DNA from: Metallyticus violacea
Taxonomy: Eukaryota; Arthropoda; Insecta; Mantodea; Metallyticidae
DNA: 64,000 nt
Assembly (NCBI GenBank): GCA_030762175.1
Contig: CM060831.1
Span: 144,165,501 to 144,229,500 of the forward strand
Direction: 5' to 3'
Shown here: positions 22,563 to 59,280 of the stretch, piece after piece
How positions within the stretch are numbered: the stretch's first letter is position 1
How the letters are laid out: the number at the start of each line of letters is the position of its first letter
The notes under the pieces: generated by a model
The model's database searches: none
What the model saw: only the letters and a program-made list of their open reading frames with translations
What the model was told of the DNA's origin: nothing
Program-made: the position numbers and the translations under genes

Positions 22563-23049
22563 GAAGACTGCTTGGATAATATACAGTAAACTATTAAATT
22601 AAATTTTTAAATCCATTTTGTTATAGCAGGATGATGATGCTAGGAAAATGGAAAGGGAAATGCACGTTTTTGACAGTCTGGTATCATTCATACATAGAAA
22701 TACAAGTTAAAATAATGTAGATCTAAGGCAAACTGCTCAAATATCGCTATTTTAACACTTACTGCTATAGTGAATCGTTTTAGCTACTACCATGGATATC
22801 TCTGAAATGAAAGGTGCTATTGATGCGCTTTTTTCACCGAATTGAAATTCAGGCATGCGTATATCACGTACTCCATACAATTTCAACAATTATTAGAATG
22901 TGTATTTACAGTTATCGTTATTTAATTTTTTATGCTTTTATTTATAAGTTTACTGTTATAAGGAGCTATGCAATAGCAATTGTTACTGTTCTTGTGTATA
23001 ACATCTCTCCCATGTAAATAGGACGGGATCAGCATGCACGGCCACCAGG

Positions 23050-23452
23050 CCCAAACGAAGAGCGATATTTTCAGGAATGAGCACCTCCAAGGGCCGGCCT
23101 GCACGCTCTTCGTCTTCAATGCTTTCTCGACCCATTCGAAAAAGTTGGCACATTCTTTTACGGTAGAATATGAGGAGGATGCTTCCCCATATACATCGTG
23201 CAATCGCTGTTTAATTTCATTTGGAGTAAGTCTTTCTTTTGTAAAGAACTTAATAATAGCTCGAAACTTCATTTTGAACATGTCACAATCTTCTACACAT
23301 GCCTTTTTTATGCAACTATATGTGAACAACTGAACTCAGTGGAGCAGAAGTTACAGTTGCAAGTATTTACTTAACAGATAAGGTATGACACCAGATAAGG
23401 CTTTTGTGAAGGCGTTAACCCATATTGGCAAGTCCGGAAACTTATGGACCTA
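23050..23452 (-). mobile_element. mariner M1 fragment (5' end only)
   Basis: 5' third of the same element as 57991-59280. The right end at 23432-23452 is the terminal inverted repeat (GGAAACTTATGGACCTA). Then comes an untranslated leader, and a minus frame whose conserved part (about 23080-23270) contains FFTKERLTPNEIKQRL and SYSTVKECANFFEWVEKAL, the first helix-turn-helix and following linker of a mariner transposase. Similarity stops near 23050, so the catalytic domain and second terminal repeat are missing. Confidence 0.85.
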
Positions 23453-28796: not shown

Positions 28797-29265
28797 TACA
28801 ACAGTTGCTCAAAATGCCCATCATCGGCGTCGTTACACTTCTGAGTACGTTCAACTACTGATTGAGCAACGTTTGCGAAAGTGTCCTCAGCGGTTGCAAG
28901 CACATGCCGTTTCAATTTCTTCCCCAAGTTCTGTCAGTGTAGCTGGTTTTCTACGGTATACAACAGCCTTAAGAGTTCCCCACAGGTAGAAGTCCAACGG
29001 AGTTAGATCCGGAGAACGCGGTGGAAATTCAATCAGACCTATTCGTCCTATCCAGTGCCTTGGAATGTACGCACGTATATGTCGGTGGTAATGTGGTGTA
29101 GCACCATCTTGTTGGAAGTAAAATTCTTCGCTTTCATAGAGTGTATGAATGGCGAGTAAGATGGATGTGCATATCATGTCTAGGTACACTGGGTCAGTTA
29201 CTGTTCCTTCAATAAAGAATGGTATAATGCATGTTCTGTTTACAGAACATCATACTACACATACC
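28797..29265 (-). pseudogene. DDE transposase remnant (M5, IS630/Tc1/mariner type)
   Basis: Catalytic half of a DDE transposase. On minus, the frame at 28887-29189 reads YLDMICTSI, then FYFQQDGATPHYHRHIRAYI (second catalytic Asp), GRIGLIEFPPRSPDLTPLDF (third Asp in the PLDF block) and YLWGTLKAVVYRRKP. Upstream in another frame PFFIEGTVT precedes it. A frameshift near 28886 leads to the terminal block DDGHFEQLL and a stop at about 28797, the usual C-terminal ending of this family. The N-terminal DNA-binding half and both terminal repeats are missing. It is the best-preserved catalytic core in the window. Confidence 0.85.
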
Positions 29266-30044
29266 ATTGTTTTTCGACCCAACTTTGAAATGTATTAAAC
29301 AGATATGCCTGTTAATTCGACATGCAACGGATGCGGCCTTGGCTCAGTTGCGAATGCAGGACAAAAATAACCATCGGCATCATTACATTACACGCAAAAT
29401 GATAAGGTACGCAGAAATATCAACACTGCTGTGCAAGCAGACAATAGAACTGCTCTCTTTCTCTCTGGGCAGCAGTAACCACAAGTGTCGGACGACACCT
29501 CCACATAGCGCCTTGCTCAGACATCAGGGAGGTGTCACATGGTTGGAATCAGGACATAATTATACCCATATGTAAGCTTCACAGTCAGTGTATGACGTGC
29601 AATGTACAGAACCCGCCTCTATGACTCAGGGGTATACAGCAATATGAGTAAGAATTGAGAAATGGAAGGTATATTAAAATGTAACCAATAATGAAGTTGT
29701 AATGAACTAACAGAACAAAAAACATAAATATTTATTATTTATATAGATGCTATTTTTCTATCTTTCCAGGATAAGGAAATTTGCCTGTTTCTGCACTATT
29801 TCCTCTCTGTGCTCTTCCAATATTTCTTTTATCCACATATATATGCAGATATATTGTCACGACTAGTAAAGGAAGCGGGATCGAGACCATACTCCTGTAA
29901 AAGAATACAAAACAGTCAGTGCGTCCACCAACAATGTCACGACTCCAGTCGGATTAAGAAGGGGCAAGGTGCTTCAGAGGTAAAAGAGCACTAAACCATA
30001 AACTATGTATCGCTGAATTTATTAGTTAAAGAGAGAACATCCCA
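29266..30044. other. no recognised gene
   Basis: No identified feature. GTGCTTCAGAGGTAAAAGAG at 29970-29989 resembles a Pol III box A region but has no box B partner. Confidence 0.4.
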
Positions 30045-30183
30045 TCATGGACCCGAAACTTACCTTAGTCGATGTTGACTGAGCTAAGCCGAGTAGGGGC
30101 CATGGCAGAACGTCTGGTTTGAACTCCGACCAGCGAGGGTCCAGTCTGACAACGCTACATCTGACCATTTCCGCTGAGCCACC
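30045..30183 (-). repeat. tRNA-derived SINE (type C), short
   Basis: On minus, a strong box A (TGGCTCAGCGG at 30171-30181) and a box B-like GAGTTCAAACC (30117-30127) sit about 45 bp apart. A GC-richer body follows. It borders the tandem array directly, so the array may have grown from its flank. No second copy of the body was seen in the window. Confidence 0.55.
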
Positions 30184-30772
30184 CTTATGTTTTACACACT
30201 TTCAATATCCGGTTAAATCTTAGAATATTCCAAACGATTTGATCATTTACGTCACGAAAGCTTCTAGAATATTCGACCACCCTTATGTTTTATACTATTT
30301 CAATATCCGGTTAAATCTTTGAATATTAAACGATTTGATAATTTACGTGACGAAAGATTCTAGAATATTCTACCACCCTTAATTTATACCATTTCAATAT
30401 CCGGTTAAATCTTAGAATATTGCAAACGATTTGACAATTTACGTCATGAAAGTTTTTAGAATATTCGACCAACCTTATTTATACTATTTCAATACTATTT
30501 CAATATCCGGTTAAATCTTAGAATATTAAACGATTTGATAATTTACGTCACGAAAGCTTTTAGAATATTCTACCACCCTTAATTTATACCATTTCAATAT
30601 CCGGTTAAATCTTAGAATATTACAAACGATTTGATAGTTTACGTCACGAAAGCTTCTAGAATATTCTACCAACCTTATGTTATATACCATTTCAATATCC
30701 GGTTAAATCTTAGAATATTCCAAACGGATTTGATAATTTACGTCACAAAAACTTCTAAAAGGTTCTACAGGA
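30184..30772. repeat. 96-bp tandem array with HSE-like and CRE-like motifs
   Basis: Six head-to-tail units. The same internal position recurs at 30262, 30358, 30454, 30558, 30654 and 30753, so spacings are 96, 96, 104, 96 and 99. The longer fourth unit contains a small internal duplication (CTATTTCAATA). Units 1, 2 and 5 contain TTCTAGAATATTC, a perfect three-pentamer heat-shock element pattern (TTCnnGAAnnTTC). Units 3 and 4 differ from it by one base, and unit 6 is eroded. A second GAATATTC lies about 35 bp upstream in most units. TTACGTCA, a CRE/ATF-type octamer, lies just before the HSE in five of six units. Conserved blocks also include TTCAATATCCGGTTAAATCT. Confidence 0.93.
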
Positions 30773-31410
30773 TTTCTCTAACGGAAGTGTCTTAACCAAA
30801 GGGGATGTTACTTGACATTAAAAATGGTAGCCCAACAGGAGAATGTGGGTTTAACCAAAGGTTAGTCTGCAAAACTACTGTGCACAAAGGCTTGATACAA
30901 CTTCCCCAATTTATGCAGCATCCTCATAGCAACACATTCTCTTATGTTTAACTTATAATTTGAAATATTGACAAATATACTGAATTGCGGACACCGAATT
31001 ACTTAGCTCGTCACAATATTAGGGTGATTTCGTTTTGGGAACAACACACGACATGTTCTGTTCATCAGTGCTGCTAATTCTGTATCAGGGTGCATGTTTA
31101 ACACTTACCTGATATCGTCGTTTTTATATGATCTATTCTTGAATAACGACCATTGTTCTGTCAAATTTTATCTGATAATTTTTCTTCTATTCTTTTACTG
31201 TCATATACAGGATGCGGAAAATACGTGAAAAAGAAATTCATTAACAGAAAGAGAATCGCAAAGCAGACACCTCAAGAATAGGAACAAAATTCTTGCAACT
31301 GAAGGCTTTAAATCCAAAGACACAAATGCTTTCATATAGATAAAAGACTGCAAACACAATAGATTTACTTAGATAATTGTTAATCTGTCAAATACATGAT
31401 GCAATACACG
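30773..31410. other. no recognised gene
   Basis: Sequence to the right of the tandem array. No known family and no open frame of interest. Confidence 0.45.
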
Positions 31411-52524: not shown

Positions 52525-53081
52525 TTTTTTTAATTGTTTTATTTACGCTCTTTAACATCTCATGTCCCATTCTATTCAGGCCATGAAACGGCCAAAAATG
52601 TTTGCTCAGAGGCTTCTTCTTTCAGGCTTGAGGTTCCTATACGTTTTTTTTTTTGATTGATTTTTTTATTTATGGACGCTCTTTAACATCTCAGATCATC
52701 AGCGTCCCATTCAAATCAGGGCGTGAAACGGCCGACAAATTTTGCTCAGAGGCCTCTCTTTCAGGCTTGAGGTTATTTTTCGTGCCGTAAATGTACGACA
52801 CGGGACCCACGGCTTTACTTCCCTCCCGAAGGAAGCCATACTTAGGATTTTTACGCCCGAAAAAATCCATCGGTCCTGGTCGGGTTCGAACCCGCGATCT
52901 TGGGTTCCTTTACGTGCCGTAAATGTACGACACATGACCCACTACTTTACTTCCTTTCCGAAGGAAACCATACTTAGGATTTTTACCCCCGAAAAAATCC
53001 ATCCATCCTGGCCGGGTTCGAACTCGCGATCTTGGGTTTAGAAGGCAAGTATGGTTACCACTACACCACCAGGACCGACTA
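52525..53081 (-). mobile_element. SINE B copy 5 (outer), interrupted by a second SINE B
   Basis: Minus orientation. The tail and body lie at 52525-52643, and the rest of the body and tRNA-like head at 52903-53081. Flanking direct repeats CCAACCATTAGT (52513-52524) and CCGACCATTAGT (53082-53093) differ at one base and mark the outer insertion. Another SINE B sits in the middle (52644-52902). Confidence 0.93.
52644..52902 (-). mobile_element. SINE B copy 6 (inner), 5'-truncated
   Basis: Minus orientation. A T-rich (A-rich on minus) tail lies at the left and the body is complete. The copy stops at CCCGCGATCTTG, lacking about 45 bases of the tRNA-like head. Outer-copy sequence GGTTCCTATACG (52632-52643) and GGTTCCTTTACG (52903-52914) flanks it as a target-site duplication with one mismatch. 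Confidence 0.92.
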
Positions 53082-57990: not shown

Positions 57991-59280
57991 TAGGTCCATA
58001 AGTTTCCGGCCCTACATGTTCTGGGTATGATAAAGGAAAAAACTATACTTCACTTTTCAATATTGTTTTCATTTATTACAATACATTTCTAACATCTTTC
58101 AATTAACATTTCAATCACCCTCCCCCCCAAAAATAGTCAGAAATCTTGTCTGCAAAATGGGCATAAACAGCATCCATCACTTCTTTGTCATACTTAAATT
58201 TCCTTTCTGGAAGGTTCATCTTGAGTTTTTGAGAAGAGGAAATAGTCACTAGGAGCTAGATCAGACCTGTAGGTGGATGGTCGATAACCTTGAAGTCACA
58301 TTTCTTCACAGCTTCCTTTGTAGCATGGGGTGTGTGCACAGACGCGTAGTCGTGCAGAAGCCGCATATCACCATTCAATTTTCCTTGCCTTATCTCTTTG
58401 ATGGAAGCACGTAATCTGTGCAGTAGGCCAGCATATTACTCCCCATTTACTGTGGTGTTTCTCTCCTTGAGGTGAATGCAGAGTATTCCTTCACAGTTCC
58501 AAAAGATTATGGCCATGATCTTCTTGGTCGACTGAGTGACTTTGGCCTTTAGAGGCAGTGCTCGCCAGGTTTACACTCCCTCCCCCCATTGATTGTCTTT
58601 TGGAGAAGGAATCATAGTAGAGGACTATAGTTTCATCTTCTGTAACAATGGTTCGCAGAACTTCTCTCATGTTGCCACGGCACAGCTCCAAAAATACCTG
58701 ACTAAAGATGACTCGTTGCTGCTTTTGGACTGAGGAAAGAAGTCTAGGCACTCATCTTGCACTAACCTTATTCATGTTTAAATGTTCATGAACATTTCGA
58801 AAGACTGTTGTTTTAGAAAGGCCCACGCTTGCTGCTATTTGTGTAACTTTGAGCCGCCGATCTTCCATAATTTCTCCTTCCACAAGAGCGAGGTTTTCAG
58901 GAGTGAGCAACTCCAAGGGCCGACTTGCACGCTGTTAGTCTTCAACGCTTTCTCGACCCATTCGAAAAAGTTTGCCCCATTTGTTACTGTAGAATATGAG
59001 GGGGATACTTCCCCATACACACTGTCCAATCGCTGTGTAATTTCATTTGGAGTATGTCCTTCTTTTGTGAAGAAATTAATAACAGCTCGAAACCCCATTT
59101 TGAACACGTTACAATCTTTTACACATAGCCTTCTTTGTGCAACTATATTTGAACAGCTGAACACAGCGGAGTGGAAGTTATGGCGGCAATTATTTACTTA
59201 ACAGATAAGATATGACACCAGATAAGGGTTTTGTGAAGGCGATAATCCTTTATCGGCGAGGCCGGAAACTTAAGAACCCA
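57991..59280 (-). mobile_element. mariner M1 element, full-length
   Basis: 1.29 kb, the usual size of an autonomous mariner. Ends: TAGGTCCATAAGTTTCCGGC at 57991-58010 and GGCCGGAAACTTAAGAACCCA at 59260-59280, whose outer CA probably derives from the TA target. It has the same leader as the 23.05-23.45 kb fragment. It is the longest M1 copy in the window, so it is the best reference for this family. Confidence 0.93.
58089..59098 (-). pseudogene. M1 mariner transposase, frameshifted
   Basis: Start taken at 59098 (MGFRAVINFFTKEGHTPNEI), in line with the other copies. It continues with SPSYSTV (HTH), WVEKALKTNS, then, after frame changes, RLLSSVQKQQRV and IVTEDETIVLYYD (first catalytic Asp; the usual TGDE is TEDE), LLHDYASVHT (second Asp; the usual HDNA is HDYA) and DLAPSDYFLFS (third Asp, intact). 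The stop is at about 58089 after an EMLIERC-like end. Unlike the 24.65 kb copy all three aspartates survive, but several frameshifts and at least one stop kill the gene. It is about 330 residues if read through, normal for mariner. Confidence 0.88.

Follow-up and report, generated by a model that had tools for sequence, protein, structure and literature searches.

The six 96-bp units that stand in tandem in the window, the 64-kb stretch of Metallyticus violacea DNA analysed here, are best explained, with moderate confidence, as the promoter module of an old LTR retroelement of a putative stress-promoter type, duplicated in place within one of its solo LTRs. In the source elements, HSF trimers would have bound an HSE whose distance upstream from the TATA box is ~65-80 bp. 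Bound HSF would then have driven stress-coupled transcription from that box in full-length elements, tying their spread to stress. Recombination would have left solo LTRs, and slippage or unequal exchange may have enlarged the promoter module in one of them. The array is probably neutral today.

The repeat array and its HSE, CRE-like and TATA sites

By using Tandem Repeats Finder, we found one array of ~590 bp with a period of 96 and six copies, at 30179-30768 (Table 1), which bears out the six units of about 96 bp described in an earlier note on this DNA with bounds of 30184-30772. In LTR order, the unit runs from an HSE (GAAccTTCtaGAA) through a CRE-like site to a TATA box. The HSF-type pattern that the earlier note had recognised qualifies, as judged from its sequence, as a real three-pentamer HSE, and its count of three perfect sites and two that are one base off is correct: the only exact TTCTAGAATATTC sites of the 64-kb window lie at 30262, 30358 and 30654, TTTTAGAATATTC is found in two units, and the sixth unit carries TTCTAAAAGGTTC. 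Compared with the HSE form of the dispersed copies, five window units have the spacer TA instead of CC, and two of these five also lack a contact base. HSE density in the window exceeds chance: base composition predicts 0.8 three-pentamer cores, and there are four, of which the array contains three. A further three-pentamer HSE core, TTCTGGAAGGTTC, lies outside the LTR at 58205-58217.

The CRE-like TTACGTCA, claimed for five units, is indeed exact in 5/6 (30247, 30439, 30543, 30639 and 30738). The "second GAATATTC" said to lie upstream is exact in two units (30223 and 30713) and is replaced elsewhere by GAATATTA or GAATATTG. TATA-like boxes are present in five units: besides the TATAAA of u2, matches start at 30388, 30483, 30588 and 30686 (TATATA), and the box of u1 is degenerate (TGTAAAA).

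Table 1. Features of the solo LTR and of its tandem units, in window coordinates
Feature	Position	Strand	Remark
Solo LTR, TG...CA	29855-31015	minus	both ends recur in relatives; two-LTR copy L063 matches
ATAT, 5' flank of LTR	31016-31019		candidate 4-bp target duplication
ATAT, 3' flank of LTR	29851-29854		candidate 4-bp target duplication
Six tandem promoter units	30179-30768	minus	u6 is first in LTR order
u6	30669-30768	minus
u5	30573-30668	minus
u4	30469-30572	minus
u3	30373-30468	minus
u2	30277-30372	minus
u1	30179-30276	minus	nearest to the downstream part of the LTR
HSE of u6	30753-30765	minus	dispersed-copy form, one contact base lost
HSE of u5	30654-30666	minus	perfect, three pentamers
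HSE of u4	30558-30570	minus	one contact base lost
HSE of u3	30454-30466	minus	one contact base lost
HSE of u2	30358-30370	minus	perfect, three pentamers
HSE of u1	30262-30274	minus	perfect, three pentamers
TATAAA of u2	30289-30294	minus
Splice-donor-like AGGTAAGT	30058-30065	minus	AAG/GTAAGT, downstream of the TATA boxes
AATAAA	30018-30023	minus	candidate polyadenylation signal, intact in 19/31 relatives
Inner GTCGTGACA	29935-29943	minus	repeat of the LTR end, ~80 bp before the end

An expanded segment within a dispersed repeat

We searched the species' own genome (2.32 Gb, 310 contigs). Among the matches listed for the whole-array query (40 scored) were the window itself, one copy with two units (L002) and 38 matches of single-unit length. 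In the fetched loci, alignment to the window continues on one or both sides of the unit, as far as 29851 and 31019, and the array is therefore an expanded segment of a dispersed element. Queries with the unit, the U5 part and the U3 part each found at least ~40 places, together at least ~90 different places by hand count, and 36 of the 39 other matches listed for the U3 query stop between query positions 243 and 250 (31015-31022 in the window). Of the 86 other unit-bearing loci examined, 85 carry one unit and one (L002) carries two; the 86 combine a set of 53 distinct loci, in which only L002 has two units, with further stretches selected by the U3 part, 33/34 of which matched the unit, none of them with two. 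Thus, the likeness to human satellite III drawn in the earlier note does not hold: satellite III forms large pericentromeric arrays, whereas here a single array of 590 bp sits in one solo LTR, and 85/86 other loci have one unit. We reject a satellite reading: no long satellite array was among the matches listed, and the amplification is local, inside a dispersed repeat.

On the minus strand, the element starts with TGTGACGAG and ends with TCGTGACA in many copies as well as in the window, with the TG...CA ends expected of an LTR, and ATAT-like flanks are frequent. The window LTR measures 1161 bp because it holds six units; its relatives are mostly ~620-690 bp long. A target-site duplication at the LTR ends is weakly supported: in the 31 of 46 loci in which both ends were found, 77/124 flanking letters match against a shuffle mean of 68.8, a value reached by 439 of 20,000 shuffles, and the single exact pair other than ATAT is TCAG/TCAG at L049. 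In one locus (L004, C8:59976628 region), a 13-bp inverted repeat (ATAATTACCTTTT / AAAAGGTAATTAT) borders the LTR copy, as though insertion had taken place mid-palindrome.

Along the majority sequence of 31 copies, the start falls at column 5, the HSE at 255, the CRE-like site at 275, the TATA box at 334, the splice-donor-like AAGGTAAGT at 465, AATAAA at 517 and the end motif at 599 and 679. AGGTAAG is present in 19/31 relatives, the splice-donor-like site falling within the region used for retrieving those copies. The inner GTCGTGACA precedes sequence resembling that after the LTR end in longer copies (29855-29943; L010, L060, L062, L064-L066), and tail length varies from copy to copy, as if the LTR end had been duplicated together with the adjacent internal start. 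A tRNA-derived stretch after the TATA box, considered for its tRNA-promoter-like words, was rejected, Rfam giving no hit in 29500-31300 and ARAGORN none within the LTR.

Elsewhere in the window, three mariner-type transposase-like fragments lie on the minus strand at 28887-29249, 22922-23335 and 58835-59197, with matches to DDE_3 (E 0.0013) and Mos1-type HTH_48 (E 0.0021 and 8.2e-05), all below the Pfam curated cut-offs. At 52777-53038, two 132-bp tandem units that are 90% alike include a tRNA-like GGGTTCGAACCCGCG stretch.

A copy with two LTRs

One locus, L063, holds two LTR copies in the same orientation, 76.8% identical and with ~6 kb between them, which are sisters in a tree of 42 rows (support 100/95). 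It thus has the direct repeat at both ends of an internal region expected of an LTR retrotransposon. Parts of the L063 internal region, two of them 2.3 kb long, match L066 at 70% and 76%; of the second LTR of L066 only the last 60 bp are kept. The sequence just beyond the LTR end is common to L063-L066, and the sequence just before the LTR start is common to L063, L068 and L069, the last of these without the first LTR bases. Since the window holds one LTR and two internal pieces of L063 have no match in it, we consider the window copy a solo LTR.

We called the element non-autonomous or decayed, because 14 open pieces from the internal regions of L063 and L066 gave no Pfam match at E 0.1 and gag-pol was not found. 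After the LTR end, copies share TTATTGGCGGAGGCGCCGGT, in which TGG begins after four bases; as a candidate primer-binding site, it matched none of the insect tRNA ends compared. Before the LTR start, they share a purine-rich, GGCGGAAA-like end.

Short terminal inverted repeats (TGTGACGA ... TCGTGACA), frequent ATAT flanks and long copies in which no coding domain was detected would also fit a non-autonomous inverted-repeat DNA element rather than an LTR. We regard this as highly unlikely, given that L063 contains a direct pair of complete copies that are sisters in the tree, that other copies continue into common internal sequence at the same boundary, and that a TATA box and AATAAA follow each other in LTR order.

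Retention of the HSE across copies

Retention was measured in copies picked with the U5 query, so that the unit itself did not select them: 24/29 copies were kept in a first set, five being dropped for length or a missing half, and seven were added later, which gave 31 copies. In the first set of 24, the 9-column HSE core came first of 682 windows in retention. Among the 31 copies, the HSE GAAnnTTCnnGAA is intact in 23 (rank 1 of 677 offsets, median 8), TATAAAA in 18 (rank 35 of 684), AATAAA in 19 (rank 45 of 685) and the CRE TGACGTAA in 6 (rank 537 of 683). Of these 31 copies, 19 were never among those that the unit query listed, and 13 of the 19 have an intact HSE (rank 1 of 677 with one tie, median 4). 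A second sample was chosen by the U3 part, with 34 copies fetched and two dropped for a foreign insertion. In these 32 copies, the HSE is intact in 20 (rank 4 of 117, 7 tied, median 12), TATAAAA in 24 (rank 5 of 123) and the CRE TGACGTGAA in 7 (rank 97 of 121).

A check attached to the earlier note asked whether HSE and CRE positions vary as freely as their flanks. In the copies sampled, the HSE does not, as few patterns of the element are better kept, whereas the CRE does. We therefore rejected a CRE or bZIP site as a conserved feature on these counts (6/31 and 7/32); its loss may in part be CpG decay. Of the proposed heat-shock and CRE enhancer array, what stands is a real three-pentamer HSE that is well kept genome-wide, and what falls is the kept CRE and the satellite nature.

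The dispersed form of the HSE is GAAccTTCtaGAAgcTTt, with three perfect pentamers and an imperfect fourth, so that the HSE of at least three pentamers expected in a heat-responsive LTR is present. The three-pentamer core occurs in 43/54 unit copies from all retrieval routes, a count that includes copies found with the unit itself, and the fourth pentamer is perfect in 2/54.

Part of this retention could be mutational, because the HSE, once corrected for base and CpG, takes rank 10 among the 677 windows of the whole LTR, with the nine higher windows in the region used for retrieval, and because the second sample shows spacers almost as well kept as contact bases (mean identity 0.937 and 0.947, against 0.901 for the rest). 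The latter also indicates that the whole HSE block, not the contact bases alone, is kept. One may thus ask whether the resemblance to an HSE is functionless, the LTR promoter block mutating slowly and a neutral tandem array having grown from it. Better retention of A and T columns than of G and C, spacers that nearly equal contacts and unit distances that place array growth after insertion (see below) all fit this explanation. However, the corrected HSE ranks 1 of 332 within U3 (2 of 332 for the 19 copies), retention also peaks at the TATA box, and three perfect pentamers stand at canonical spacing with a partial fourth; we hold it to be rather unlikely.

Growth and present state of the array

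We return to the duplicated promoter module of a solo LTR. The unit tree pairs u2 with u4 and u3 with u5 (support 100/91 and 99/96, on few columns), which points to duplication of a two-unit block. Distances between units are 0.077-0.202 (mean 0.127). Doubling the end branch of the window LTR gives 0.22, a larger value, so that growth of the array probably followed insertion, as judged from few sites. The window copy and L002 were grouped in 0% of bootstrap trees, and the promoter was therefore duplicated at least twice, independently, as far as a bootstrap that had not settled indicates. Both duplications span the HSE to the TATA box.

Inside the array, the earlier view of sites that persist in an otherwise drifting unit does not hold. 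The HSE is invariant at 9/13 columns and ranks 40th among 96 13-column windows, behind 39 with better retention, and the best-kept, invariant stretch is AAGATTTAACCGGATATTGAAA. The HSE thus gets no special retention there.

Could the units recruit HSF now and be transcribed, or regulate their neighbours, under stress? Three perfect HSEs within 405 bp, which could still be able to bind HSF, and five units with TATA-like boxes would suit such a functional heat-shock enhancer or satellite array. We find it quite improbable, considering that the HSE is not specially kept within the array, that 3/6 HSEs lack a contact base, that the TATA box of u1 is degenerate, and that the array is small, single and set in a solo LTR. 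For the first three of these reasons, present function of the window copy appears doubtful.

Relation to known heat-responsive elements

From its sequence, we propose to place the element in the class of heat-responsive LTRs. Like ONSEN/COPIA78 and other heat-responsive COPIA LTRs of Brassicaceae, the element carries an HSE of at least three pentamers within a retroelement LTR; COPIA37 and ROMANIAT5 have 3P HREs, and ONSEN has a 4P HRE derived from a duplicated proto-HRE (PMC3907296, PMC5059998). For ONSEN, HSF binding and heat induction were demonstrated (PMC3907296), whereas here they are proposed; host and element differ, no coding domains were seen, and in one copy the complete HSE-to-TATA module stands six times in a row.

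Helitrons of Caenorhabditis that bear HSEs are likewise dispersed animal mobile elements with HSEs of the NGAANNTTCNNGAAN form, and some copies hold dense clusters; they are, however, rolling-circle DNA elements with up to >100 HSEs, whereas a normal copy of the LTR here has a single HSE (PMC6927752). By analogy, we propose that the two may be comparable in effect (PMC6927752). The growth of the array resembles that of the U3 repeats of human ERV-9/LTR12 solo LTRs. In many of their copies the U3 enhancer is likewise tandemly repeated, and variable repeats near the LTR end are a further likeness; their enhancer units, however, measure ~41 bp, number 5-17 and have NF-Y, GATA-2 and MZF1 sites, whereas the unit here is 96 bp long, reaches from HSE to TATA and normally occurs once (PMC11853044). 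With human satellite III, the array shares a tandem repeat with HSF-site-like motifs.

HSF-wired LTRs are on record for plants, as are Helitrons with HSEs for nematodes; a heat-shock LTR in an insect or other animal was not among the literature matches listed, a scope that left subscription papers mostly outside. As a tentative and unlikely extension, an animal LTR family with an HSF-driven promoter (HSE, TATA box, splice donor) would have seeded heat-inducible promoters, able to splice into neighbours, over a 2.3-Gb genome, and the six-module window copy would be the most strongly inducible seen. If the HSE works, the family would test whether animal retroelements, too, exploit the host stress response to spread, and, with copies of one, two and six units, how stepwise promoter duplication affects inducibility.
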